64,000 nt of DNA from Blastococcus mobilis (GTDB taxonomy: Bacteria; Actinomycetota; Actinomycetes; Mycobacteriales; Geodermatophilaceae): positions 186,001-250,000 of the forward strand of contig NZ_FZNO01000001.1 of the NCBI RefSeq assembly GCF_900188025.1, given 5' to 3'. A program made the translations under genes and the position numbers. This document shows, piece after piece, positions 40,640 through 57,897 of this stretch. How positions within the stretch are numbered: position 1 is the first letter of the stretch; each line of letters opens with the position of its first letter. The notes beneath the pieces are model-generated. The model did not search any database and was not told the origin of the DNA. It worked only from the letters and a program-made list of their open reading frames with translations.

Positions 40640-41485
40640 TCAGTCCAGCACCTCGTTGGCGCTGGCCTCCTCCCACCTGACCATGCGTTCGATCGCGGTC
40701 GGTCCGAGCCGGTCGAGGACCGCGTCGACCAGGAGTTCGGTCAGCAGAAAGGCGGCCGCGGCGGAGTCGAAGGCGCCGGACGACCGCACCGAGGTGGGGA
40801 GGACGACCGTGGCCACCTGGGCGGCGGGGGAGAGCCATTCGTCGGTGATGCAGATGATCTGCGCCCCGGCGTCGGCGAGCTGGGTGACCTGCTCCACGGT
40901 CCTCGCCTGGTAGCGCCTGAAGTCGTAGACGACGAAGACGTTCCTGCGGTCGGCGTCGATCACGTCCGCCGCGTCGATCGTCTGCCCGTCGCCGGGTGCC
41001 GAGACGTTGGGTCGGATCTGCCGCAGATGGCGGGCGAGGTAGCCCGCGAGGTAACCGGAGAACCGCCCGCCCACGGCCGTCACCCGCATCCGGGGATCGG
41101 CCAGCAGGGTCACCGCGGCATCGAGCTCGGCCTTGGGGATGGACGTCAGGGACCGCGCGATCGAGTCCGTCGCGAGCTGTACCCCACGCTCGAGCCAGTG
41201 CCCCTCGGCGCGGTTGGCCCGGCTGTCCTCGTAGAGCGACAGCGGCGACGCGACGCGCTCGGAGAGCTCGTCGAGCAACGCCTGCTGCAGGGCCGGGAAG
41301 CCGGTGTGACCCAGGCTGCGGGCGAAGCGGACGACCGTCGGTGGGCTGACGCCGGCTGCCGTCGCGAGCTCCGCGCTGGTCCCGAGCCCTGCTCGGGGAT
41401 AGTCGGCGAGCAGCACGCGGGCGACCCGCCGCTCCTGGGGGCTGAACGTCGACAGGTCGGCCTTCAGGGCGTCGCGGATGGACAC
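40640..41485 (-). CDS. RpiR-family transcriptional regulator (HTH + SIS)
   Basis: A 281-residue regulator. The N-terminal RpiR helix-turn-helix (about 1-78) carries LGTSAELATAAGVSPPTVVR and FARSLGHTGFPALQ; residues 115-270 are a SIS domain (VTAVGGRFSGYLAGYLARH, VVLPTSVRSSGAFDS) that normally binds a phosphosugar or, in this context, another ligand. The GTG at 41485 starts five bases after the amidotransferase stop, making the two co-transcribed; an upstream in-frame start at 41521 would overlap that gene. With the RpiR-type palindrome at 42355-42372 upstream of both operons, it very likely controls this locus, including itself. Confidence 0.88.
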   Translation of the reverse strand: MSIRDALKADLSTFSPQERRVARVLLADYPRAGLGTSAELATAAGVSPPTVVRFARSLGHTGFPALQQALLDELSERVASPLSLYEDSRANRAEGHWLERGVQLATDSIARSLTSIPKAELDAAVTLLADPRMRVTAVGGRFSGYLAGYLARHLRQIRPNVSAPGDGQTIDAADVIDADRRNVFVVYDFRRYQARTVEQVTQLADAGAQIICITDEWLSPAAQVATVVLPTSVRSSGAFDSAAAAFLLTELLVDAVLDRLGPTAIERMVRWEEASANEVLD

Positions 41486-41489
41486 GGGG

Positions 41490-42302
41490 TCACTGTGCAG
41501 AGGGCAGCGCCAGGGGATCAAGGACCTCGGTCTCGCGGGTGCTCAGGTCGATGGCCAGGATGCTGTCGGCCGGCACCGGCGTCCATCCCTCGTCCGGAAG
41601 GCCGCTGGAGATGACGTGCACCGCAGTGGGGCTGACCTTGTACGCCATGTCGAAGTACGCGGTGGCGTGCCCGTGGGGCATGGCGTCGTCGGAGCCCACG
41701 AGCTCCCGGAGGTCGTCCAGAGGAGTGGCGGCCCCACTGTTGACGTGCACCGCGTACAGCCGGGTGGGGGTCAGGAAGAGGGCGTTGAGGCTGGCCTCGG
41801 GGAAGTGCTCGTGCAGCAGCCCGACCGCGCGGGCGAGGCCGGTCCGTTCAGCCCCGGTCTCCTCGATGCATTGCAGGACGAGGCGGAAGTACCGCTCGCT
41901 GTCGGTGGTGCCCTTCAGCGCCGCCCGGCTGCGCTCCGACAGCAGGGACTCCAGCACGGCGATCGGCGAGATGCTGCCGTTGTGCGCGAGCGCGTAGGCC
42001 CCGTCGATGAACGGGTGCGTGTTCATCGAGTGGACGACGAGTCCGTCCGTGGCCCAGCGGAGGTGGACCAGCCCGGCGGAGCCGAGGGCCTGCCCGGCCA
42101 GTTCGAAGTAGGACGGGTCGTCAGCCGCCGACACCGGTGAGGTCGCCCCCTCCACCCGCGTGCTCCCCGGTCGGGCCCAGGCCATTCCCCAGCCGTCGCC
42201 GTGCACGGCGGACAACGACGTGAAGGTCTGGAACTCCGTGGGGCCCAGGCCCTCGACGGCGGACAAGGGCCTCTCGGACACGTATCCCAGCAACCGACAC
42301 AA
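41490..42302 (-). CDS. Class II glutamine amidotransferase-like protein with N-terminal Cys
   Basis: A 270-residue N-terminal-nucleophile hydrolase of the GATase-2 (YafJ/EgtC) type. The nucleophile Cys must be residue 2; the only fit is a TTG start at 42302 (codons TTG TGT CGG) giving M-C-R-LLGYVSE, as in EgtC. Family features HGDGWGMAW, HLRWATDG, HNTHPF-like MNTHPFIDG and AHNGSI follow. No ammonia-using partner domain is fused, so it may hydrolyse a gamma-glutamyl amide, as EgtC does in ergothioneine synthesis. It shares an operon with the RpiR gene and is divergent from the glutamine-synthetase-like gene. An AGAAGGG sits about ten bases before the TTG. Confidence 0.85.
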   Translation of the reverse strand: MCRLLGYVSERPLSAVEGLGPTEFQTFTSLSAVHGDGWGMAWARPGSTRVEGATSPVSAADDPSYFELAGQALGSAGLVHLRWATDGLVVHSMNTHPFIDGAYALAHNGSISPIAVLESLLSERSRAALKGTTDSERYFRLVLQCIEETGAERTGLARAVGLLHEHFPEASLNALFLTPTRLYAVHVNSGAATPLDDLRELVGSDDAMPHGHATAYFDMAYKVSPTAVHVISSGLPDEGWTPVPADSILAIDLSTRETEVLDPLALPSAQ

Positions 42303-42354
42303 GTCGACAACACCCTTCTCAAGGCGGATCCCTGACCGGTATAAAGACCCCGCC

Positions 42355-42372
42355 ATGTAACAAACGTTACAT
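42355..42372. promoter_or_regulatory. 18-bp palindromic operator of RpiR/HexR type between the divergent operons
   Basis: The sequence ATGTAACAAACGTTACAT has perfect 7-base arms around an AAAC centre. RpiR-family regulators such as HexR bind sites of the form TGTAAT-N3-ATTACA, which this resembles closely. It lies about 53 bases upstream of the amidotransferase start and 39 bases upstream of the glutamine-synthetase-like start, between the two gene arms. A possible TATAC -10 lies near it on the minus strand. It fits control of both arms by the encoded RpiR. Confidence 0.75.
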
Positions 42373-42410
42373 CGGGTCCGAGAATCGCTTTCACGAAACG
42401 GACGCGTCAA

Positions 42411-43790
42411 GTGCCACCAGCCCCACCGAGCGACTCCTCTGCCCAGCTCCGTGTCGAGGGGCAGGTCGAGCGGCATGCCCGACGTCTCCGGGAAGCGGGC
42501 GTCCGGACGCTCACCGGCGTCATCAGCGACTCGGGCGGGGTCATCCGCGCCAAGACCGTCCCGGCGCGGCGGATCGAGTCCTTCGCCCGGTCCGGCATGG
42601 GCGCCTCACTGACGTGGCCGGTCTTCTGCGTCGACAACGGGATCGCCATGACCCCCGAGCTGGGCGTCGTCGGCGATCTCCGGCTCACCGCCGACCTCGA
42701 GCGGGCGGTCGTCCTCGACCACGGGTTCGGCTGGGCCCCTGCCGACGTCCGGGACCAGACCGGGGAGCTGTCGCCGTACTGCTGGCGCAGCGTGACCCGC
42801 CGCCAGGTCGAGCGGCTGGCGGCGCTCGGCATCGAGGCGCTGGTCGGCAACGAGCTCGAGTTCGGGCTGCTGGACGAGGCCGGGCGCCCGTTGGGCGAGC
42901 GCGACGGCTGGCCCTGCTACGGCGCGGGGGTGTACAGCGAGCTGAGCCAGTTCGCCGCTGACCTGTGCGAGCGGCTGGACACCGCCGGGACCCCGGTGGA
43001 GCAGATCCATGCCGAGTACGGGATGGGGCAGTTCGAGATCTCGTTGCCACCGCGAGAACCGGTCGCAGCCGCCGACGACGTGCTGCTCGCCCGGGCGGTC
43101 ATCGGCCGGGCCGCCCGGGACCACGGACTGCGCGTCACCTTCTCCCCGGTGCCCTTCTCGGGCGGCTCCGGCAACGGCGCTCACATGCACGTCTCGTTCA
43201 CCCGGGGTGGCGTTCCGCTCCTGACCGGCGGCTCGCTCCCCGAGGGCCTGACGGAGGACGGCGCCTCGGCGATCGCGGGCATCGTCCGCTGTCTGCCCGG
43301 CGGGATCGCGGTCCTGGCCGGCACCGTCGTCTCCGACGAGCGGATGCAGCCCGGCCACTGGTCCGGCGCGTCGTCCTGCTGGGGTGTGGAGAACCGCGAG
43401 GCCGCCGTCCGCCTCCTGCTGGCCACCAACGGGAACCCGCACGGGGCCAACGTCGAGGTCAAGTGCGTCGACGCGGGCGCCAACACCTACCTCGCGACCG
43501 GTCTGGTCCTCGGCTTCGCGGCCCTCGGCATCGAGGAGAACCTGGAGCTGCCGGCCGCCGTCGAGGCCGATCCCACCCAGCTGACCCCGGAGCAGGCCCG
43601 GGCCGCGGCCGTCGTCCCACTCCCGAACGACGCGGCCGGTCGCATCGCGCACTTCCGGGACAGCGGTGCGGCTCGCGCGGTCCTCGGCCCGGAACTGCAC
43701 GACGCCGTGCTCGCCGTGCGCCAGTACGAGTCCTCCCTCTACGCGGACCAGGACGCCCACGCACTCACCAGGTTCGCCTGGTCCTCCTGA
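42411..43790 (+). CDS. Glutamine synthetase-like gamma-glutamyl-amine ligase
   Basis: A 459-residue GS-fold enzyme. Core motifs are seen: ALVGNELEFGL with metal-binding Glu, EYGMGQFEISL, GSGNGAHMHVSF, and NREAAVRLLLATNG; the usual Arg-x-Glu motif before the C-terminal segment reads NVEVK, with its first Arg replaced by Asn. GS-like proteins of this type (PuuA, GlnA4, IpuC) couple L-glutamate to small amines, and the altered substrate region fits something other than ammonia. The neighbours (permease, class III aminotransferase, amidohydrolase, amidotransferase) suggest catabolism of an unknown amine through gamma-glutamylation. GTG start at 42411, about 39 bases from the operator. Confidence 0.85.
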   Translation: MPPAPPSDSSAQLRVEGQVERHARRLREAGVRTLTGVISDSGGVIRAKTVPARRIESFARSGMGASLTWPVFCVDNGIAMTPELGVVGDLRLTADLERAVVLDHGFGWAPADVRDQTGELSPYCWRSVTRRQVERLAALGIEALVGNELEFGLLDEAGRPLGERDGWPCYGAGVYSELSQFAADLCERLDTAGTPVEQIHAEYGMGQFEISLPPREPVAAADDVLLARAVIGRAARDHGLRVTFSPVPFSGGSGNGAHMHVSFTRGGVPLLTGGSLPEGLTEDGASAIAGIVRCLPGGIAVLAGTVVSDERMQPGHWSGASSCWGVENREAAVRLLLATNGNPHGANVEVKCVDAGANTYLATGLVLGFAALGIEENLELPAAVEADPTQLTPEQARAAAVVPLPNDAAGRIAHFRDSGAARAVLGPELHDAVLAVRQYESSLYADQDAHALTRFAWSS

Positions 43791-43829
43791 ATCACGTCGT
43801 GCTCCACCCATCCGAGACCGAGGAGTGAC

Positions 43830-45272
43830 ATGGCAAAGCGGAAGCTTCGACTGTGGGAGGCGCTCGCGCTCTCACTCGGCCTCATGGGTCCGACGCTCGC
43901 CATGGCCGGCAACGGCCAGGGCATCATCGGAACGGTCGGCAAGGCCGTGCCGCTGGTCTTCCTCCTGGGCTTCATGGGCGTGGCCCTCGTGGCCTACGGG
44001 TTCATCCGGCTGACCCAGCGGTACAACCACGCAGGCAGCGCCTACGCCCTCGTCGGCGCGACGCTCGGCCCGCGCGCCGGCTTCGTCGCGGGCTTCGCCC
44101 TCTTCGGCACGTACCTGTTCTTCACCATCTGCACCGCCGCGGTGTTCGGGGCCTTCCTGAACGCGCTCCTCGGATCCCTCTTCGACGCCGGCACGAGTCT
44201 CGGCTACGGGATCGCGGCCGTCGCCTGCCTGCTGGTCACGGGTTACATGAACACCCGCGACACCACCACCGTGTCGCGGTCGCTGCTGGCGATCGAGGGC
44301 GTGGGCATCGCCGCGATGCTCGTCCTCGTCGTGGCGGTCTTCGGCCAGGGTGGTGCGGACTCCACCGGCGTGGACTTCTCCACCTTCACGCCCGACGGCG
44401 TGGGCCTGAGCGCGGTGCTCGCGGCAGTGGTCGCGGCGTTCCTGTCCTGGGCCGGCTTCGAAGCCTGCGCCGCGCTGGGCGAGGAGACCGACGACCCGCG
44501 GCGGAACATCCCGCGCGCGCTCTTCGGCTCCGTCCTGCTCACCGGCGTCCTGTTCGTCGTGGTCATGTTCGCCCAGACGATCGGCTTCGGCACCGACGAG
44601 TCCGGACTCGCCGCCTTCCAGGGCTCCGGGAACACCCTGGGCGACCTCGGCGAGGGCTATGTCGGCCACTGGTTCGGGCTGCTGCTGCTGATCACGGCCG
44701 TGCTGTCGGCGTTCGCCTCCAACCTCTCATCGGTCATGGCCTCGGCCCGGCTCGCGATGGCGCTCGCCCGTCACGGGTTCGGCCCACGGCAGTTCGCCGC
44801 CATCGACCCGGCGCACCGGACCCCCCGCAATGCCGTCCTCGCCATGGCCGCCGTCGGCATCGTCGTCAACCTGGTGACCTGGTTGACCGGTTGGCCGGTC
44901 ATGGGCACCGGTGACGCGGCGATCGACGCCTACTTCTTCTTCGCCGTCGTCGGCGCCACGTGCCTGCTCTTCGCCTACCTGCTCGTCGAGGTGGCGGTCT
45001 TCGCTGCCTGGCGCAGGGGCCAGGTCACCGTCCGTACCGTCGAACTCGTGCTCCCGGCGCTCGGAGGCCTGTTCATCCTGGTCGTGATCTTCTACAGCGT
45101 GAAGGACGCCAGTGGCCTGTCGCCGGCCTTCGTCGCCATCGGCTGGGTCGTGTTCGGCCTGCTCGTCGCCCTCTTCGCCGGCGGTCTGGCCGACCGGATC
45201 GGCGCATCCCTCACGCAGGAGCTCGACGACGTCGACAAGGACCACACCTTCATCGACTCCGAGGTCCGCTGA
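43830..45272 (+). CDS. APC-family amino acid/amine permease
   Basis: A 480-residue membrane transporter with 12 predicted helices. It has APC features: LSLGLMGPTLAMAGNGQG in helix 1, RYNHAGSAYALVG, LSWAGFEACAALGEETDDPRR with the family's EET-like motif, and MASARLAMALARHG. It should import the amine or amino acid processed by this locus. ATG at 43830, preceded by GAGGAGTG, 39 bases after the GS stop. Its stop shares one base with the ATG of the aminotransferase (TGATG), so the operon continues. No substrate can be assigned from sequence. Confidence 0.88.
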   Translation: MAKRKLRLWEALALSLGLMGPTLAMAGNGQGIIGTVGKAVPLVFLLGFMGVALVAYGFIRLTQRYNHAGSAYALVGATLGPRAGFVAGFALFGTYLFFTICTAAVFGAFLNALLGSLFDAGTSLGYGIAAVACLLVTGYMNTRDTTTVSRSLLAIEGVGIAAMLVLVVAVFGQGGADSTGVDFSTFTPDGVGLSAVLAAVVAAFLSWAGFEACAALGEETDDPRRNIPRALFGSVLLTGVLFVVVMFAQTIGFGTDESGLAAFQGSGNTLGDLGEGYVGHWFGLLLLITAVLSAFASNLSSVMASARLAMALARHGFGPRQFAAIDPAHRTPRNAVLAMAAVGIVVNLVTWLTGWPVMGTGDAAIDAYFFFAVVGATCLLFAYLLVEVAVFAAWRRGQVTVRTVELVLPALGGLFILVVIFYSVKDASGLSPAFVAIGWVVFGLLVALFAGGLADRIGASLTQELDDVDKDHTFIDSEVR

Positions 45273-46573
45273 TGCACGAGGCCGCAGAGCGCCTGTACGA
45301 CCGTGATCGGATCATCGCCGGCGTCGAGAAGCTCCGGTTCTTCCCGCTGGCGCTCGAGTCGGGCCAGGGATCCTGGCTCGTGGAGGCCGGCGGTCGCCGG
45401 TTGCTCGACATGTCCGCGACGTGGACGGCCTGCTGTCTCGGGCACGGCCACCCGGCCGTGCGTGAGGCCCTGCTCCGGGCGGCGGCCGCGCCGCCCGGAG
45501 CAGGGGCGCTCAGCGCCGTGCACGAGGACGCCGTCGCGCTGGCCGAGGAGCTCCTGAAGCTCACGCCCGGCTCCGGCGACCGCCGCGTCTATCTCGGCCA
45601 TGCCGGAACGGACGCCAACGACGTCGCCGTCCGGTGCGCCGTCCACGCGACCGGCCGCCCGAAAGTGCTCGCCTTCGAGCACAGCTACCACGGTGGCATC
45701 GGGGTCGCGATGAAGGCGTCCGGTGTGCACGTCGAGGCCGGCAGCGTCGCCCCGGACGAACAGGTGCTGTTCACGCCGTACCCCGACCCCTACCGGAACC
45801 GGGAGGGGTACACCGAGGTCCTCACTGCCCTCGACGAGGCCCTGGCCGGCCAGGACGTCGCCTGCCTGCTCGTGGAGCCGATCCTCTCCGACGGCGGCCT
45901 GGTCGTGCCGCCCGACGGCTTCCTCGCCGACGTGGCCGCCCGGTGCGCGGCGACCGGCACGCTGCTGATCTGCGACGAGGTGAAGGTCGGCCTCGGCCGA
46001 CCGGGGAGCTGGCACGCGTTCACCCACGACGGGATCACCCCGGACATCGTCACCTTCGGGAAGTCGCTGGGAGCGGGCGTGCCGATCTCGGCGGCGGTCG
46101 GCCCCGCCGGGGTCTTCGACGAGCCGGGCGCGTCGGCGTTGCTGACGCAGGCGGGTAACCCGTACAGCGCCGCCACTGCCAGGGCCGTCCTCGCGACGAT
46201 GACGAAGGAGGGGCTGGTCGAGCGGGCGGCCGCAGCCGGCCGCCGGCTCCGGCACGGCCTGCGGCAGGCCACCGCGCACCTCGACGTCGTCGGTGAGGTG
46301 CGTGGTCGGGGCCTCGCGATCGGCGTGGATCTCGTGACGGACCGGGCCAGCCGCGGCAAGGATCCACGACTGGTCGCCAAGACCGTGTACCGCGTGTGGG
46401 AGCTCGGCGGCGTGGTCTTCTACGTGGGCGGCAACGTCCTCGAGGTGACCCCGCCCCTGGTGATCACCGACGAGGAGGTCGACCGGGCCGTGGAACTGCT
46501 CGCGCAGGGCATCGAGGAGGCGGCCGCCGGCAAGGTCAGCGACGCCCAGGTCGCGCCGTTCGCGGGGTGGTGA
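45272..46573 (+). CDS. Class III pyridoxal-phosphate aminotransferase
   Basis: A 433-residue PLP-dependent aminotransferase of the omega-amino-acid group (as used for GABA, beta-alanine, or polyamine breakdown). The PLP Lys is in VTFGKSLGAGVPISA, with the Asp of ICDEVKVGLGRPG upstream and RNREGYTEVLTAL and AFEHSYHGG, which binds phosphate. The active-site arrangement fits transfer from an amine carbon to 2-oxoglutarate or pyruvate. The ATG at 45272 overlaps the permease stop by a base and the stop overlaps the next start by four. In this operon it would act on the amine end of the gamma-glutamylated substrate. Confidence 0.87.
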   Translation: MHEAAERLYDRDRIIAGVEKLRFFPLALESGQGSWLVEAGGRRLLDMSATWTACCLGHGHPAVREALLRAAAAPPGAGALSAVHEDAVALAEELLKLTPGSGDRRVYLGHAGTDANDVAVRCAVHATGRPKVLAFEHSYHGGIGVAMKASGVHVEAGSVAPDEQVLFTPYPDPYRNREGYTEVLTALDEALAGQDVACLLVEPILSDGGLVVPPDGFLADVAARCAATGTLLICDEVKVGLGRPGSWHAFTHDGITPDIVTFGKSLGAGVPISAAVGPAGVFDEPGASALLTQAGNPYSAATARAVLATMTKEGLVERAAAAGRRLRHGLRQATAHLDVVGEVRGRGLAIGVDLVTDRASRGKDPRLVAKTVYRVWELGGVVFYVGGNVLEVTPPLVITDEEVDRAVELLAQGIEEAAAGKVSDAQVAPFAGW

Positions 46574-47715
46574 CGGTGGATCTGCAGGCGTACCCCGGGC
46601 CACTGGGGGAGACGGTCGCGAGCCTCCCGCTCGTCGACCACCACGTGCACGGCGCGCTGCGGGCGTCGGTCGACCGGCCGACGTTCGAGTCGATGATCAG
46701 CGAGGGACCGAAGGCGCCCTCGGCGGGGACCCAGTTCGACTCGCAGATCGGCTTCGCCATCCGACGTTGGTGCGCACCCCTCCTCGATCTGGACCCGCAC
46801 GCGTCCGCCGACGACTACTGGGAGCGCCGGTGCGCGCTGGGGGAGGACGAGGTGAACCGGCGCCTGCTGCGGGCGGCGGGCACCGCGAACTACCTCATCG
46901 AGACCGGCTACCTCGGGGACGCCGTCCTGACGCCCGCGGAGCACGCTGAGGTGGCGGCTGCCGACGCCCGCGAGGTCGTCCGGCTCGAGACGGTGGCCGA
47001 GGGGCTCCTCCAGCGGGTGGCGTCGGGGCGCGCGTTCGTTGCCGACTACCCGTCGGTGCTCGCGGAGGCGACACGGTCGGCGGTCGGGACCAAGAGCATC
47101 ATCGCCTACCGCGCGGGTTTCGACGTCGACCCCGGACGCCCGTCCGACGACGACGTCGCGGCGGCCGCCGAACGCCTGCTGCGGTCGCTCGGTGACGAGA
47201 TCCGGCTCGACGACCCGGTGCTGCTGCGGTACCTGCTCTGGTGCGGCGTCGACCGTGGTCTGCCGCTGCAGTTGCACAGCGGGTACGGGGATCCGGACCT
47301 CGATCTGCACCGGGCCAATCCACTGCTCCTCATGCCCTGGCTGCGCCAGGTGGAGTCGACCGCGGTCCCGGTCATGCTGCTGCACAACTACCCGTACCAC
47401 CGTGAGGCCGGCTACCTGGCGCAGATGTTCGACAACGTCTACTTCGACATCGGCCTGGGGCTGAACTACGCCGGCAGCCAGAGCCCCCAGCTCATCGCCG
47501 AGTCCCTCGAGGTGGCTCCGTTCACCAAGCAGCTGTACTCGTCGGACGCCTGGGGACCGAGCGAACTGCACTTCCTGGGTTCCTTGCTGTGGCGGCGCGG
47601 GATGAGCCGGATCGTCGGGATGTGGGTGCGGGACGGGGACTGGTCCCGCGGCGACGCCGAGCGCGTCCTTCGTCTCGTCGGTCACCAGAACGCCGAGCGC
47701 GTCTACCGCCTCTGA
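46570..47715 (+). CDS. Amidohydrolase-superfamily protein (FluG N-terminal type)
   Basis: A 381-residue metal-dependent amidohydrolase. The first metal motif is LVDHHVHGALR, and later LQLHSGYGDPD, LLHNYPYHREAGYLAQM and YSSDAWGPSELHFLG fill the expected metal and substrate positions. This subgroup is related to the nodulin-like N-terminal domain of fungal FluG, whose C-terminal half is a GS-like domain; here the two are separate genes of one operon. The GTG (46570) overlaps the aminotransferase stop by four bases, so it is coupled. It would hydrolyse an amide in the pathway; the actual substrate is unknown. Confidence 0.82.
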   Translation: MTVDLQAYPGPLGETVASLPLVDHHVHGALRASVDRPTFESMISEGPKAPSAGTQFDSQIGFAIRRWCAPLLDLDPHASADDYWERRCALGEDEVNRRLLRAAGTANYLIETGYLGDAVLTPAEHAEVAAADAREVVRLETVAEGLLQRVASGRAFVADYPSVLAEATRSAVGTKSIIAYRAGFDVDPGRPSDDDVAAAAERLLRSLGDEIRLDDPVLLRYLLWCGVDRGLPLQLHSGYGDPDLDLHRANPLLLMPWLRQVESTAVPVMLLHNYPYHREAGYLAQMFDNVYFDIGLGLNYAGSQSPQLIAESLEVAPFTKQLYSSDAWGPSELHFLGSLLWRRGMSRIVGMWVRDGDWSRGDAERVLRLVGHQNAERVYRL

Positions 47716-52389: not shown

Positions 52390-55300
52390 GTGTTCGGCCG
52401 AATCGCAGTGATCAATCGGGGCGAGCCTGCCGTTCGGCTCATCCGCGCCGTGCGCGAGCTCAACGCAGAGCACGGCGGCGGGACACGTGTCATCGCACTG
52501 CACACCGAGGCCGAGCGCCGGGCGACCTTCGTGCGCGCCGCGGACGAGGCCGTCGTCCTCCGCGAGACCGGTGCGGGCAACCCCTACCTCGACCACGACG
52601 AGCTGGCTCGTGCCCTGCGCACGAGCCGCGCCGATGCGGCGTGGGTCGGCTGGGGATTCGTCGCGGAGGACCCCGCCTTCGCCGAGCTGTGCGCCGATCT
52701 CGGCGTGGTGTTCATCGGGCCGCCACCGGAGGCCATGCGCCTCCTCGGCGCCAAGATCGAGGCGAAGGTGCTCGCCGAGCAGACCGGGGTGCCCGTCGCG
52801 CCGTGGAGCGGTGGGCCCGTGGACGGCCTCGAGGACGGCCGCCTGCACGCGGCCGCGATCGGCTATCCGCTCATCGTCAAGTCCAGGAGCGGCGGCGGCG
52901 GGCGCGGCATCCGCATCGTCCGTTCCGAGGGCGAGCTGGGGGAGGCGCTCACCCGGACCCAGGCCGAGGCGGAGCGCACCTTCGGCGATCCGGTCATCTT
53001 CATGGAGCGGCTGGTCGAGGGAGGCCGGCACGTCGAGGTCCAGGTCATCGCCGACCAGCACGGCACGGTGTGGGCCCTCGGCGTCCGCGACTGCTCGGTG
53101 CAGCGGCGCAACCAGAAGGTGCTGGAGGAGTCGAGCTCTCCCGCGCTGACCCCCGAGCAGGACAGGTCGCTGCGGGAATCCTCCGTCGCGCTGGTGAAGG
53201 CCGCCGGTTACGTCGGGGCCGGGACCGTCGAGTTCCTCTACCAGCCGGACGAGAAGCTCTTCACCTTCCTCGAGGTGAACACCCGGCTGCAGGTCGAGCA
53301 CCCGGTCACCGAGGAGACGACCGGCCTCGACATCGTGAAGCTGCAGCTGCACGTGGCCGAAGGTGGCCGGCTCACCGGCGAGCCACCTGCGCAGTCCGGC
53401 CATGCCGTGGAGGCGCGGCTCAACGCCGAGGACGCCGAGCAGGGGTTCGCCCCCGCTCCGGGCCGGGTCGAGCTCATGCGGCTGCCTACCGGACCGGGAG
53501 TGCGGGTGGACACGGGGATGGGCGTCGCCGACGTCATCCCCCCGCAGTACGACTCGATGATCGCCAAGGTCATCGCCTGGGGGCGGGACCGTCCCGAGGC
53601 GCTGGCCCGCCTGCGCTGCGCACTGCGTGAGACCACCGTGGTGCTGCGTGGTGGGACCACGACGAAGTCGTTCCTGATCGATCTCCTCGACCGGCCGGAG
53701 GTGGTGGCCGGCACCGCGGACACCGGCTGGCTGGACCGCACCGGGATCGACGGCGGAGACCGTCCCGTGGGTCAGGCCTGGGTGGCGCTGGTCCAGGTCG
53801 CGATCGACGTGTCGGACCAGGAGGAGGCGCGGGAGCGTGCGGCGTTCCTCGCCTCGGCCCGCGGCGGTCGACCCCGCGCGCCGCACGAGGCGGGGCGTGT
53901 CCTGGAGCTCGGCTACCGAGGGCAGCCCTATCGCCTGGGCGTGGCCAAGGTGGGGCGCGACCGCTACCGGGTGGAGCTCGACGGCCGGTACGTCGACGTC
54001 GAGATGGACCGCCTCAGCCCCCTGGAGAGCCGGCTCACGGTGGGGGAGGACCGGTTCTCCGTCGTATCCGTCGAGGCGACCGGATCGCACCTGGTCGAGG
54101 TCGACGGCGTGACCCACCGCGTGTCACGCGACGTGGGCGGTCTGGTGCGGGCCCCGGCGCCCGCGGTCGTCGTCGCGGTGCGGGCGTCCGTCGGCCAGGA
54201 GGTCGAGGCGGGCCAGACGGTCGTCGTGCTGGAGAGCATGAAGATGGAGACAGCGGTCCGCGCGCCGGTCGCGGGCCGGGTCCGTGAGGTGCTCGCCGGA
54301 CCCAACACCCAGGTCGACGCCGGTGCCGCACTGCTGAGGATCGAGCCCGCCGGAGACGACGTGGAGGAGGCGACCGGCGAGCGGGCCGCGCTCCCGGACG
54401 ACGAGGACGTGCAGCCGCGCGCCGCCCGCGACGCCGCCGTGCCGCTCCTGGGCGCACTGCAGGCGCTCATCATGGGATACGACGTCAGCGCCGACTACGG
54501 GCGGCAACTCGTGGCCGAGTACGGCACCGCGCGTCGCGAGCTCCCGGAGGACGTTCCGGAGTTGCTGGACGCCGAGCTCGCCGTCCTCACCACGTTCGCC
54601 GACCTCTGCGACCTGTCGCGCAACCGCCCGGCCAGCGAGGAGGAGGAGGCCGACCAGCAGGTCCACAGCCCGCGGGAGTACTTCCACGCCTACCTGCACT
54701 CCCTGGACGTCGAGCGCGAGGCCCTTCCGGAGAGCTTCCGTGACCGGCTCGCCAGGGCGCTGACCCACTACGGCGTCGAGGACCTCGAGCCCGGGCTCGC
54801 CCTCCAGGAGGCGGTGCACCGGATGTTCCTGGCCCAGCAGCGCGTCGGTGACCAGCTGCCGGCCGTGCTCGCGTTGCTGGACCGCTGGCTCACCGCAGAA
54901 CGGCCACCCACCGGCTCCGCGCGCGCCGACGTGGCGGAGGTGCTGGACCGGCTCGTCGTCGCCACCCAGCTCCGCTACCCGACCGTGGGCGACCTCGCCC
55001 GCGCGGTCCGGTACCGCTTCTTCGAGGAGCCCGTGCTCCGCCAGGCCCGGCAGGGGGTCCTCGACGAGGCGCAACGGCTGCTGGACGAGCTCGATGCCGC
55101 CGGCGCCCGTGGCGACACCGCCGAGAGCGTGGCGCGCATCGAGGCGCTGGTCGCGAGCCCTGAACCGCTGATCCGGCTGCTGGCGCAGCGGTTCCGGCGT
55201 CCGACGCCGGAGCCCGACCCCATCCTCGAGGTCCTCACCCGGCGCTACTACCGCAGCCGCGACCTGCAGAACGTGCGGTCCTTCCTGCTCGGCGGGCAGT

Positions 55301-57897
55301 CGTCGGTCTCGGCCGACTACGAGCTGGAGGGCAGGCGGCTGCACCTGATCTGCCTGATGGCCGAGGCCGCTGCACTCCCCGACGCCCTCACGTCCCTGTC
55401 GGCAGCGGTCGCGGACGTCGACGACCCGTCGCACCTGCTCGTGGACCTCTACCTGTCCTGGCCGGACCGTCCCGCCGACGCCGACACCATGGCGGCGCAG
55501 CTGCACGAACGGCTGGCCGCTTTCCCGGCGCTGCAGAGCGTCCGTCGGGTGACGGTGACGGTCTCCACCCTCGACGGCGACGTGGAGGTGGTGACCTTCC
55601 GGCCGTCGGAGGGCGACTCGGAGCCGGGTGGTCTGGCCGAGGACCGGCTCATCCGGGGCCTGCACCCGCTGACCGGGCAGCGACTCAACCTGTGGCGGCT
55701 GAAGCACTTCGACGGGGTGCGGCTGCCGTCGGCCGAGGACACCTACCTGTTCCACCTCACCGGCAAGGAGAACCCGAACGACGAGCGGCTCGTCGCCATG
55801 GCGGAGATCCGCGACCTGACGCCGCTGCGGGACGAGGCCGGCGAGATCGTCACCCTCCCGACGCTGGAGCGGCAACTGACGGCCTGTCTCGACAGCCTGC
55901 GGCGGGGACAGTCGCAACGGAGGTCCCGGCGGCCGCTGCAGCACAACCGCATCTACCTGTATGCCTGGCCGTCCATCGAGCTCCCGCTGTCCGAGGTGGC
56001 GACCTTCGCGCAGACCGCCGCACCCCTGACGGTCGGCGCTGGTCTCGACCAGATCGTGCTGCTGGCGCGGCTGCAACAGGAGAGCGGCGCGCCCCAGGAC
56101 GTGGCGCTGCGCTTCTCCTACCGGCCGGGCACCGGTGTCGGCATGGAGGTGACCGAGCGGCCGACCGAACCGATGCGCCCGCTCGACGAGTACGCCGAGA
56201 AGGTGTTGAGCTCGCGGGCCCGCGGCGCCGTCTACCCCTACGAACTGACGCCGCTGCTCGCCGGTCCCGACGGGACGTTCGTCGAGTACGACCTGGACGA
56301 GCAGGGCCGGTTGGCACCGGTGCAGCGCGCCCCTGGTCACAACCAGGCGGGCATCGTCGTCGGGGTCGTGAGCACGCCGACGAAGCGCTATCCGGAGGGC
56401 ATGACCCGGGTGGTCCTCTTCGGCGACCCCACCAAGGCACTCGGCACCGTGGCCGAGCCCGAGTGCGCGCGCATCAACGCCGCACTGGACCTCGCCGAGG
56501 AGCGGGGGATCCCCGTCGAGTGGTTCGCGTTGTCCTCCGGGGCCCGCATCTCGATGGACAGCGGCACCGAGAACATGGACTGGGTGGCGCGCACACTGCG
56601 CCGGATCATCGAGTTCACCCAGGCCGGCGGGGAGATCAACGTCGTCGTCGCCGGGATCAACGTCGGTGCGCAGCCGTACTGGAACGCCGAGGCGACGATG
56701 CTCATGCACACCAAGGGCATCCTCGTCATGACGCCGGACAGCGCGATGGTGCTCACCGGCAAGCACTCCCTCGACTACTCCGGCGGTGTGTCGGCCGAGG
56801 ACAACTTCGGGATCGGGGGCTATGACCGCGTCATGGGTCCCAACGGCCAGGCGCAGTACTGGGCGCCGAACCTGACGGCAGCGACCGAACTGCTGGTGCG
56901 GCACTACGAGCACACCTACACCGCGCCCGGTGAGCGCTGGCCGCGGCCGGCCGACACGGACGATCCGCGCGACCGCGACGTCCGCACCTTCCCGCACAGC
57001 CACCCGTCGAGCGACTTCACCACGGTGGGCGACATCTTCTCCGCCGACGCCAACCCCGAGCGCAAGAAGCCGTTCGACATCCGCACGGTCATGCAGGCCG
57101 TCGCCGACCAGGATCACGAGGTCCTGGAGCGGTGGGCCGGGATGGCCGACGCCGACACGGCCGTCGTCTACGACGCCCACCTGGGCGGCCACCCGGTCGA
57201 GGTCATCGGCATCGAGTCCCGGCCGATCCCGCGCCGGGGCAGCTTCCCAGCCGACGGCCCGGACCAGTGGACGGCCGGCACGCTGTTCCCGCGCTCGTCG
57301 AAGAAGACCGCTCGGGCCATCAACGCGGCCAGCGGCAACCGGCCGCTGGTCGTGCTGGCCAACCTGTCCGGGTTCGACGGCTCACCGGAGTCGTTGCGGA
57401 ACCTGCAACTGGAGCTGGGCGCCGAGATCGGCCGGGCGATCACCAACTTCGACGGCCCGATCGTGTTCTGCGTCATCTCCCGCTACCACGGGGGCGCCTT
57501 CGTCGTCTTCGCCGGCGTCCTCAACGACAACATGGAGGTCCTGGCCGTCGAGGGCTCCTACGCGTCGGTCCTCGGCGGCGCCCCTGCTGCCGCCGTCGTC
57601 TTCACGCGCGAGGTCGACAAGCGCACCGCGGCCGACAGCCGGGTGCGTGACCTCGAGGCCGCGATCGCGTCGGCCCAGGGGGCCGAGCAGGCGCACCTGA
57701 GGGCCGAGCTGGCGAGCCTTCGCGCCACCGTCCGCTCGGAGAAGCTCGGCGAGGTCGCCGACGAGTTCGAGTCGATCCACGACATCGAGCGCGCCCGTCG
57801 CGTGGGCTCGGTGCACGCCATCATCCCCGCCGCCGAGCTGCGGCCCCGCCTCATCGCCGCCGTCGAGCGGGGGATGGAACGCGCCGGCCGGAGTTGA
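52390..57897 (+). CDS. Single-chain acyl-CoA (acetyl-CoA) carboxylase, eukaryote-like domain order
   Basis: An 1835-residue biotin enzyme with all activities in one chain. Biotin carboxylase covers about 1-450 (VINRGEPAVRLIRAV, KSRSGGGGRGIRIV, EVNTRLQVEHPVTEE). BCCP follows with biotinyl Lys618 in VLESMKMETAV (about 590-650). A ~600-residue central region resembles the ACC central domain. The carboxyltransferase comprises about 1270-1835 (LFGDPTKALGT, RISMDSGTENMDWV, GGVSAEDNFGIGGYD, NPLVVLANLSGFDGS as RPLVVLANLSGFDGS). This order is that of eukaryotic ACC and rare in bacteria, where the subunits are usually separate. The product, malonyl-CoA (or another acyl-malonyl-CoA), would feed the KAS III gene 35 bases downstream. 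GTG start at 52390. Confidence 0.88.
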   Translation: MFGRIAVINRGEPAVRLIRAVRELNAEHGGGTRVIALHTEAERRATFVRAADEAVVLRETGAGNPYLDHDELARALRTSRADAAWVGWGFVAEDPAFAELCADLGVVFIGPPPEAMRLLGAKIEAKVLAEQTGVPVAPWSGGPVDGLEDGRLHAAAIGYPLIVKSRSGGGGRGIRIVRSEGELGEALTRTQAEAERTFGDPVIFMERLVEGGRHVEVQVIADQHGTVWALGVRDCSVQRRNQKVLEESSSPALTPEQDRSLRESSVALVKAAGYVGAGTVEFLYQPDEKLFTFLEVNTRLQVEHPVTEETTGLDIVKLQLHVAEGGRLTGEPPAQSGHAVEARLNAEDAEQGFAPAPGRVELMRLPTGPGVRVDTGMGVADVIPPQYDSMIAKVIAWGRDRPEALARLRCALRETTVVLRGGTTTKSFLIDLLDRPEVVAGTADTGWLDRTGIDGGDRPVGQAWVALVQVAIDVSDQEEARERAAFLASARGGRPRAPHEAGRVLELGYRGQPYRLGVAKVGRDRYRVELDGRYVDVEMDRLSPLESRLTVGEDRFSVVSVEATGSHLVEVDGVTHRVSRDVGGLVRAPAPAVVVAVRASVGQEVEAGQTVVVLESMKMETAVRAPVAGRVREVLAGPNTQVDAGAALLRIEPAGDDVEEATGERAALPDDEDVQPRAARDAAVPLLGALQALIMGYDVSADYGRQLVAEYGTARRELPEDVPELLDAELAVLTTFADLCDLSRNRPASEEEEADQQVHSPREYFHAYLHSLDVEREALPESFRDRLARALTHYGVEDLEPGLALQEAVHRMFLAQQRVGDQLPAVLALLDRWLTAERPPTGSARADVAEVLDRLVVATQLRYPTVGDLARAVRYRFFEEPVLRQARQGVLDEAQRLLDELDAAGARGDTAESVARIEALVASPEPLIRLLAQRFRRPTPEPDPILEVLTRRYYRSRDLQNVRSFLLGGQSSVSADYELEGRRLHLICLMAEAAALPDALTSLSAAVADVDDPSHLLVDLYLSWPDRPADADTMAAQLHERLAAFPALQSVRRVTVTVSTLDGDVEVVTFRPSEGDSEPGGLAEDRLIRGLHPLTGQRLNLWRLKHFDGVRLPSAEDTYLFHLTGKENPNDERLVAMAEIRDLTPLRDEAGEIVTLPTLERQLTACLDSLRRGQSQRRSRRPLQHNRIYLYAWPSIELPLSEVATFAQTAAPLTVGAGLDQIVLLARLQQESGAPQDVALRFSYRPGTGVGMEVTERPTEPMRPLDEYAEKVLSSRARGAVYPYELTPLLAGPDGTFVEYDLDEQGRLAPVQRAPGHNQAGIVVGVVSTPTKRYPEGMTRVVLFGDPTKALGTVAEPECARINAALDLAEERGIPVEWFALSSGARISMDSGTENMDWVARTLRRIIEFTQAGGEINVVVAGINVGAQPYWNAEATMLMHTKGILVMTPDSAMVLTGKHSLDYSGGVSAEDNFGIGGYDRVMGPNGQAQYWAPNLTAATELLVRHYEHTYTAPGERWPRPADTDDPRDRDVRTFPHSHPSSDFTTVGDIFSADANPERKKPFDIRTVMQAVADQDHEVLERWAGMADADTAVVYDAHLGGHPVEVIGIESRPIPRRGSFPADGPDQWTAGTLFPRSSKKTARAINAASGNRPLVVLANLSGFDGSPESLRNLQLELGAEIGRAITNFDGPIVFCVISRYHGGAFVVFAGVLNDNMEVLAVEGSYASVLGGAPAAAVVFTREVDKRTAADSRVRDLEAAIASAQGAEQAHLRAELASLRATVRSEKLGEVADEFESIHDIERARRVGSVHAIIPAAELRPRLIAAVERGMERAGRS

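Follow-up and report, generated by a model that had tools for sequence, protein, structure and literature searches.

In a 64,000-nucleotide stretch of the Blastococcus mobilis genome (the window, within which all coordinates are given), a six-gene locus at 40640-47715 combines a pyridoxal phosphate (PLP) enzyme of a racemase clade with a homologue of glutamine synthetase (GS) and two hydrolases: an amidohydrolase (AH) of the type that forms the N-terminal part of FluG, and an N-terminal-Cys hydrolase that resembles class-II glutamine amidotransferases (GAT2). The genes form two divergent arms, with GAT2 and an RpiR-family regulator running leftward and GS, an APC-family permease, the PLP enzyme and AH running rightward. 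An initial annotation, made from the sequence alone, had taken the locus to be an isolated oddity. It belongs instead to a widespread module, which exists in several variants and in which the same kind of racemase is accompanied by a GS-type ligase and a pair of hydrolases. We propose that the operon would encode an RpiR-controlled catabolic route in which an alpha-amino amide or lactam is tagged, hydrolysed and untagged, with the racemase serving both enantiomers, and we give this proposal an even chance of being correct.

The PLP enzyme had been labelled an aminotransferase. Its nearest relatives are instead ACLR, the caprolactam racemase of A. obae (2ZUK, also 3DXW), and an amino acid amide racemase (6GIO): compared with solved structures, it scored 389.6 bits with 2ZUK and 385.5 bits with 6GIO, and the next families scored 238 bits and below. 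Identity over 424 columns was 47.6% to 2ZUK and 46.2% to 6GIO. Among the 25 listed of 69 matching NCBIfam families, no aminotransferase cut-off was reached, the best score being 299.8 bits against 608. The gene is 88-89% identical in Geodermatophilus siccatus, in a Blastococcus metagenome-assembled genome (MAG) and in Geodermatophilaceae bacterium URHB0062.

We take the active-site residues of ACLR to be W49, Y137, D210, K241 and K267 in 2ZUK numbering, with Asp210 and Lys241 presumably the catalytic pair. Their counterparts in the window enzyme are W51, Y139, D207, K238 and K264. Position 207 was Asp in all 80 racemase-clade rows (79 loci and the window). Of 17 other class-III enzymes, four of which belong to the window genome, none has Asp there, although their alignment is loose near this position and two have Asp one column further. 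Lys was present at position 238 in 80/80 rows, a count that is partly circular since the search pattern DEVKVGLG contains this Lys; the 17 other enzymes have mostly Gln, Met, Ile or Val there, and Lys in one case. W51 was less constant (72/80), and Y139 and K264 are residues general to class-III enzymes. A tree of 99 rows placed 2ZUK, 6GIO, the window enzyme and the enzymes of the 79 loci (82 rows) in one group, apart from the 17 others (SH-aLRT 98, starred). This tree was made by a quick method and the program warned of long branches meeting; all rows were kept. 2ZUK was nested in a Rhizobiales group, mostly Ensifer (99, starred), and 6GIO adjoined Steroidobacter enzymes (93, unstarred). On the bit scores, D207, the clade and the unreached NCBIfam cut-offs, we rejected the aminotransferase reading: judged by its sequence, the enzyme is a member of the racemase clade and no ordinary aminotransferase. 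The clade is what it shares with ACLR and the amino acid amide racemase, and its function is predicted. ACLR acts on alpha-amino lactams and amino acid amides and exchanges the alpha-proton of homocysteine thiolactone, and one of its homologues is a racemase of amino acid esters (PMC11391342, PMC7431475). ACLR was also used as a modelling template in PMC3149608.

The GS homologue, whose best PDB match was 4HPP (PA5508; 6.1e-48), has S66 at the position of the ammonium-activating Asp and W317 at that of the catalytic Glu. In glutamine synthetase, these residues deprotonate ammonium and act in the transition state, respectively (PMC6478659). Among 64 GS rows, including that of the window, Asp was found at position 66 in none (one row has a gap) and Trp at position 317 in 64/64. 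FluG has the same pair, Ser at S481 and Trp at W726, and PA5508 has the Trp as well. Because both glutamine-forming residues are replaced, synthesis of glutamine by this protein is very unlikely, and we rejected its identity as a glutamine synthetase. As the initial annotation had suggested, its sequence indicates that it should be a gamma-glutamyl-amine ligase.

AH had a single strong match among solved structures, 2QPX (7.5e-38). Since LSEI_0440 (2QPX) and PA5508 (4HPP) are the proteins substituted for the two halves of Aspergillus FluG in PMC6478659, the split FluG that had been seen in this locus is borne out by the nearest structures of both AH and GS. No fused FluG-type polypeptide is present; AH and GS are separate, with two genes between them. 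FluG is one amidohydrolase-GS fusion, whereas the two window genes are accompanied by a permease, a racemase and a second hydrolase. The metal ligands H25, H27, H236, H272 and D326, the carbamylated Lys K175 and the Tyr Y180 are all present in AH, according to the list of binuclear metal ligands, carbamyl-lysine and tyrosine given for 2QPX and FluG in PMC6478659. For each of the seven, no more than one of 38 rows (window included) departs, either by a gap or, at H272, by a Leu.

GAT2 begins MCRLLGY, and its TTG start is followed immediately by the Cys codon, as N-terminal-Cys hydrolases require. C2, R82, N108-G109 and D134 were conserved in 25/25 rows (window included), which fits what we take to be the class-II glutamine-site motif (N-terminal Cys, Arg and Asp, with an Asn-Gly oxyanion hole). 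With this signature intact, the protein could release glutamate, as had been supposed. Its description as EgtC-like holds at the level of the superfamily and fails at that of the equivalog: GAT2 scored 52.5 bits with TIGR03442, against a cut-off of 218.65, and we rejected the equivalog assignment. EgtC, the gamma-glutamyl hydrolase of ergothioneine synthesis, resembles GAT2 in having a class-II N-terminal-Cys domain without a synthase domain; its context differs, however, as the Pfam names of the six window genes include none from ergothioneine synthesis.

Co-conservation of the six genes had been set beforehand as a test, and the set recurs, patchily, in Geodermatophilus, Blastococcus, Propionicicella, Janibacter and others. 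To define its extent, we took an alignment of five racemases as the query for a scan of 84,980 species genomes; the best 80 of 215 relatives gave 79 distinct named loci, several of them short. The scan for relatives used DEVKVGLG as a pattern. Module gene families were sought by tblastn with several queries per family, and two runs were merged, with matches of at least 60 bits counted. The merge restored nine matches (AH in L216 and L224, GS in L241 and APC in six loci), and a weak APC-like match in L244 (~60 bits, rounded) was left uncounted. Some genomes appear to occur twice in our collection (G002 = L182, G005 = L183, G338 = L230 and G354 = L229). The racemase is itself patchy, with a match at or below 1e-70 in 4/296 genomes of the class, including the window genome; close relatives of AH (~80% identity) were present in only 2/15 other genomes of the genus.

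GS was found in 63 of the 79 racemase loci, RpiR in 49, AH in 39, GAT2 in 25, an M20 peptidase in 15, an N-formylglutamate-amidohydrolase-like protein (FGase) in 24 and an isochorismatase-like protein (ISO) in 20. Fifty loci have at least 8 kb of flank on each side, and 43 of these have GS. The 43 comprise 18 loci with ISO and FGase, 12 with AH and GAT2, 12 with AH and M20 and one with GAT2 alone (L215). In other words, 42/43 have exactly one of AH or ISO plus exactly one of GAT2, M20 or FGase, and two members of the same slot occurred together in 0/79 loci. The hydrolase pair was complete in 55/63 GS loci; the other eight are MAGs (L215, L218, L228 and L230, with GAT2 and no AH found) or short contigs (L195, L210, L238 and L248). 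AH was combined with FGase in three loci, L253 with GS and L242 and L247 with no GS found.

The hydrolase slots are interchangeable, and the pairs switched repeatedly on the racemase tree. The minimum number of label changes on supported branches was 8 for AH with GAT2, 5 for AH with M20 and 6 for ISO with FGase, part of which is due to rows with incomplete labels on short contigs; otherwise, labels cluster by kinship. One clear swap is L201 (AH with M20), which lies within a group of AH and GAT2 loci (L193, L196 and L197; 99, starred). In the GS tree, from which rows below 350 aa were dropped and in which the motif filter missed three of four paralogues from the window genome, two deep lineages were found in the module: that of the window lies near AH-linked GS proteins of the same order without a racemase, and the other holds PA5508 (placement weak, 94/53). 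Because two deep GS lineages serve the module, either the partnership of racemase and ligase arose more than once or the ligase was replaced. Two loci of Acidimicrobiaceae MAGs (L200 and L233) each have one GS from each lineage, with an Orn/Lys/Arg-type decarboxylase between them. The neighbourhood of PA5508 itself has appeared in expression studies, PA5506-PA5509 being jointly over-expressed in plasmid-carrying PAO1 and PA5507 and PA5509 being altered in an nrdR study.

As a check on chance, we examined five other class-III places in the window genome (one of the five under the cut-off) and found that one lay within 10 kb of a GS gene. This second GS near a class-III enzyme (C36:1-15000, L269) was rejected as unrelated, since it belongs to a siderophore-type locus that holds two IucA/IucC-type synthetases, a class-III aminotransferase, an Orn/DAP/Arg-type decarboxylase, a siderophore-type binding protein and the GS homologue. 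Because GS can adjoin an unrelated class-III enzyme in the same genome, adjacency to GS alone is weak evidence; the strong evidence is the pairing of the hydrolases. FGase gave a match in 1/14 control genomes; the Oceanobacillus genome of L255 holds three copies, and on the 1.9-Mb Shinella plasmid p1_Teo12 the single copy is the module's own.

The module was found in Actinomycetota, Pseudomonadota and Bacillota, and it includes what is nearly ACLR itself. On a replicon of Shinella zoogloeoides, the racemase has 98.2% identity to A. obae ACLR (over 2ZUK residues 6-439) and lies beside an ABC importer, in the order RpiR, ISO, GS, FGase, racemase; the deposited annotation of a second Shinella strain (84%) gives the same order. 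The window operon has AH, GAT2 and a permease where the A. obae ACLR-type module has ISO, FGase and an ABC importer. Over the 79 loci, the importer was of the APC kind in 36 and was represented by a branched-chain-type ABC binding protein in 26, and the two kinds never occurred together at 60 bits or more. The Klebsiella plasmids NZ_LR890649.1 (L268) and NZ_CP029140.1 (L267) carry ISO-FGase-RpiR and, divergently, GS-APC-racemase, with the racemase at 56% identity, and Klebsiella accounts for 44/67 plasmid records that match the window racemase. One of these two plasmid modules lies near insertion sequences and a lac region. In the Rhizobiales loci L235, L237, L240, L243 and L246, a second, distant class-III enzyme lies 3' of the racemase on the opposite strand; that of L235 carries a fused APH-type kinase domain and has a match to NCBIfam PRK06149.

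From the gene set, the racemase clade, the loss of the glutamine-forming residues, the intact hydrolase signatures and the two exchangeable slots, all of which are visible in the sequence, we infer a series of reactions. ACLR-type enzymes require a free alpha-amine beside an amide-like carbonyl, and a GS-type ligase requires an amine. The permease would import a compound in which an amide, lactam or ester carbonyl lies next to a free alpha-amine, and the ACLR-type enzyme would convert the D form into the L form and back. The GS homologue would then attach a gamma-glutamyl group to the amine at the expense of ATP, the FluG-type AH would open the amide or lactam, and the N-terminal-Cys hydrolase would strip off the tag, yielding glutamate and the free amino acid. 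In this order of steps, which like the reactions is deduced, the substrate may be lysine or ornithine lactam, another amino acid amide or an amino lactone. The families found in the first slot are hydrolases of amides and cyclic amides. Those in the second are three unrelated families (those of EgtC, N-formylglutamate hydrolases and M20 aminoacylases) that have in common an action on glutamyl or N-acyl-amino-acid amides. A basic amino acid decarboxylase (Orn/Lys/Arg family) was found in 11/79 loci, near the regulator in most, and none is among the six genes of the window; its presence hints that the product can be Lys, Orn or Arg, which would fit a lactam of lysine or ornithine. More broadly, and with somewhat less confidence than we have in the route itself, the module may represent a hitherto undescribed kind of pathway, in which alpha-amino lactams, amides or esters receive a gamma-glutamyl tag and an ACLR-family racemase operates alongside a GS-type ligase and hydrolases from two slots with exchangeable members.

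The addition and later removal of a gamma-glutamyl tag has a precedent in the Puu pathway of E. coli, in which the tag is likewise added with ATP. We take an oxidase (PuuB), an aldehyde dehydrogenase (PuuC) and a class-I amidotransferase (PuuD) to be features of that pathway, and by Pfam the window operon has none of the three, as the initial annotation had stated for the first two. On the content of the six operon genes (PuuB, PuuC and PuuD were not sought in the rest of the genome), we rejected the Puu pathway, which resembles our proposal in tagging and untagging. The initial annotation had set the Ipu and GlnA4 clusters aside as well; feature by feature, our comparison covered Puu.

The pairing of AH with GS is also familiar, and much of it occurs without a racemase. 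AH matches were found in 37/98 relatives and in 81/296 genomes of the class, and a GS gene lay within 6 kb in 29/40 AH loci examined. PMC6478659 describes bacterial GS and amidohydrolase genes as lying near each other, credits such neighbours to Iyer et al. 2009 and likens FluG-type amidohydrolases to cyclic amidohydrolases. In Streptomyces, SCO6961 (an amidohydrolase 2 protein) is likely co-transcribed with glnA3 and is induced by polyamines (PMC5403932). Because it has been reported in these two papers and is common among AH loci, the AH-GS gene pair is already known and is not new. In same-family genomes L068 and L074-L079, AH has an M20 peptidase match and an APC permease in its vicinity and no racemase, and GS was found only in L074 and L077.

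Several observations weigh against the route that we propose. Of the full-flank racemase loci, 6/50 had neither GS nor any module hydrolase; the seventh full-flank locus without GS carries AH and FGase. GS, a remote AH (30-37%) and GAT2 occur without a racemase match in L157, L158, L164 and L168, three of which have APC. The window GS is nearer to AH-linked GS proteins of the same order that lack a racemase (L067, L097 and L104) than to the GS proteins of ISO and FGase loci. If the AH-linked GS proteins include mycobacterial GlnA3, as we believe, then the ligase may act on polyamines. The route would also spend ATP on tagging ahead of a hydrolysis that could proceed without it, and we have no firm reason for this cost. 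Finally, PA5508 prefers bulky amines (PMC6478659). Because these GS, AH and GAT2 sets have no racemase match, and neither have 37/40 AH loci (the exceptions being L065, L066 and L087), we conclude that a ligase with hydrolases is the wider theme and that the racemase marks one branch of it. The racemase is not required for every such set, and loci of the L157 type may represent a related tag pathway without racemisation. In G148, a genome of another family, the full set of the window is present at lower identity, split over two contig ends (L087 and L155) whose continuity is assumed.

One alternative is a polyamine route of the GlnA3 type, in which the ligase would glutamylate a polyamine, the class-III enzyme would transaminate the free end, and the hydrolases would release glutamate and an omega-amino acid. 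In the GlnA3 pathway, GS lies beside an amidohydrolase-2 protein (S. coelicolor SCO6962-SCO6961), a gene pair that the window shares; glnA3 and SCO6961 are both induced by polyamines, and SCO6961 is the hydrolase of the route predicted by its authors (PMC5403932). Mycobacterium GlnA3 glutamylates spermine, its preferred substrate (PMC11841054). The decarboxylase in 11 loci also speaks for polyamines, and so does the GS tree, in which the window protein groups with AH-linked ones from genomes of the same order. However, this route needs a transaminase, and the PLP enzyme scored below the aminotransferase cut-offs given above and has the clade and residues of ACLR; an aldehyde dehydrogenase cluster is present in just 8/79 loci, and the plain AH-GS pair generally does without the PLP racemase that the window has. 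We therefore consider the polyamine route unlikely. The same two facts, the racemase clade and the rarity of aldehyde dehydrogenase, count against the transamination step for which the initial annotation had argued. That step would survive if the PLP enzyme, for all its common ancestry and pocket residues with ACLR, were a genuine aminotransferase and the pathway a transaminating variant of the gamma-glutamyl amine route. Its Pfam family is Aminotran_3, and its relatives are annotated as aminotransferases in their records, but 2ZUK and 6GIO, both named racemases, nest among the module enzymes, and Lys occupies a position that is mostly Gln, Met, Ile or Val in the 17 other class-III enzymes (an argument that is partly circular). 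We regard this explanation as decidedly unlikely.

It is also conceivable that the locus detoxifies or scavenges reactive amino lactones, such as homoserine lactone or homocysteine thiolactone, with the glutamyl tag blunting the amine and the racemase and hydrolases handling both enantiomers. The proton exchange of ACLR on homocysteine thiolactone and the racemisation of esters by its homologue (PMC11391342, PMC7431475) would suit such substrates, as would the comparison of FluG-type amidohydrolases to cyclic amidohydrolases (PMC6478659). The module hydrolases, however, belong to amidase or peptidase families, no lactonase was found among the recurrent clusters that were annotated (the rarer clusters were annotated in part), and a dedicated importer indicates uptake of an external substrate. 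This explanation appears very unlikely, and the tag-hydrolyse-untag route for an amide or lactam remains the one that we prefer.

The six genes claimed for the locus are all present, each with Pfam support, and their positions are collected in the table. Within the right arm, the gap between GS and the permease is 39 nt, the permease and PLP genes overlap by 1 nt, and the PLP and AH genes overlap by 4 nt; in the left arm, 4 nt separate GAT2 from the regulator. Because these intergenic gaps are tiny or replaced by overlaps, each arm very likely forms a single transcript.

Features of the Blastococcus mobilis locus, with positions in the window
Feature	Position	Strand	Support and remarks
RpiR/MurR-family regulator (HTH_6 + SIS)	40640-41485	-	Pfam HTH_6 7.8e-14, SIS 2e-13; start GTG 41485 or TTG 41521
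Class-II glutamine amidotransferase-like N-terminal-Cys hydrolase (GAT2)	41490-42302	-	Pfam GATase_4/GATase_6; TTG-TGT start
Palindrome TGTAACAAACGTTACA, candidate RpiR operator	42356-42371		Divergent promoter region
GS homologue, proposed gamma-glutamyl-amine/amide ligase	42411-43790	+	Gln-synt_C 7.8e-65; GTG start
APC-family permease, proposed importer	43830-45272	+	AA_permease_2 9.7e-34
Fold-I class-III PLP enzyme, ACLR / amino-acid-amide racemase clade	45272-46573	+	Pfam Aminotran_3; 2ZUK 389.6 bits
FluG N-terminal-type amidohydrolase (AH)	46570-47715	+	Amidohydro_2 1.3e-9; 2QPX 7.5e-38

Between the arms lies the palindrome TGTAACAAACGTTACA, the sole match of its pattern in the window; the pattern was found 0 times in 100 shuffles. 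Its arms are kept, with a changed spacer, in three Geodermatophilaceae relatives and a Marmoricola MAG (L182, L183, L258 and L238), and two Microbacteriaceae loci (L222 and L225) have TGTAAT..GTTACA ~130-155 bp upstream of the first operon gene. In all, the pattern occurred in 6/83 other loci scanned, always at the divergent promoter or before the first operon gene. It was present in 3/19 loci with AH and GAT2, and L184 and L206 are without it. The palindrome is therefore best regarded as a candidate RpiR operator of close relatives only. Farther along the window, at 52390-57897 on the + strand, an open reading frame of 1835 aa has, by eye, the look of a single-chain acyl-CoA carboxylase, with fused biotin carboxylase, biotin carrier and carboxyltransferase parts.

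Gamma-glutamyl tagging, ACLR and the FluG-type pair are each known separately. We found no paper in the open-access literature that links ACLR to a gamma-glutamyl ligase, although the amidoligase survey of Iyer et al. 2009 was not covered, so that an earlier notice is possible. ACLR has been used for decades in amino acid production, and we know of no established natural role for it. Its recurrence with a gamma-glutamyl ligase and paired hydrolases brings such a role within reach of experiment. The exchange of hydrolases likewise hints at a function for the FluG-type AH: it shares its slot with an isochorismatase-like amidase, and taking off the glutamyl group would fall to a different enzyme in the other slot. 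This offers a testable lead on the product of FluG. If the proposal is true, the ACLR family would gain a physiological role, and the FluG-type AH would be placed at a defined step, the opening of an amide on a glutamyl-tagged substrate.

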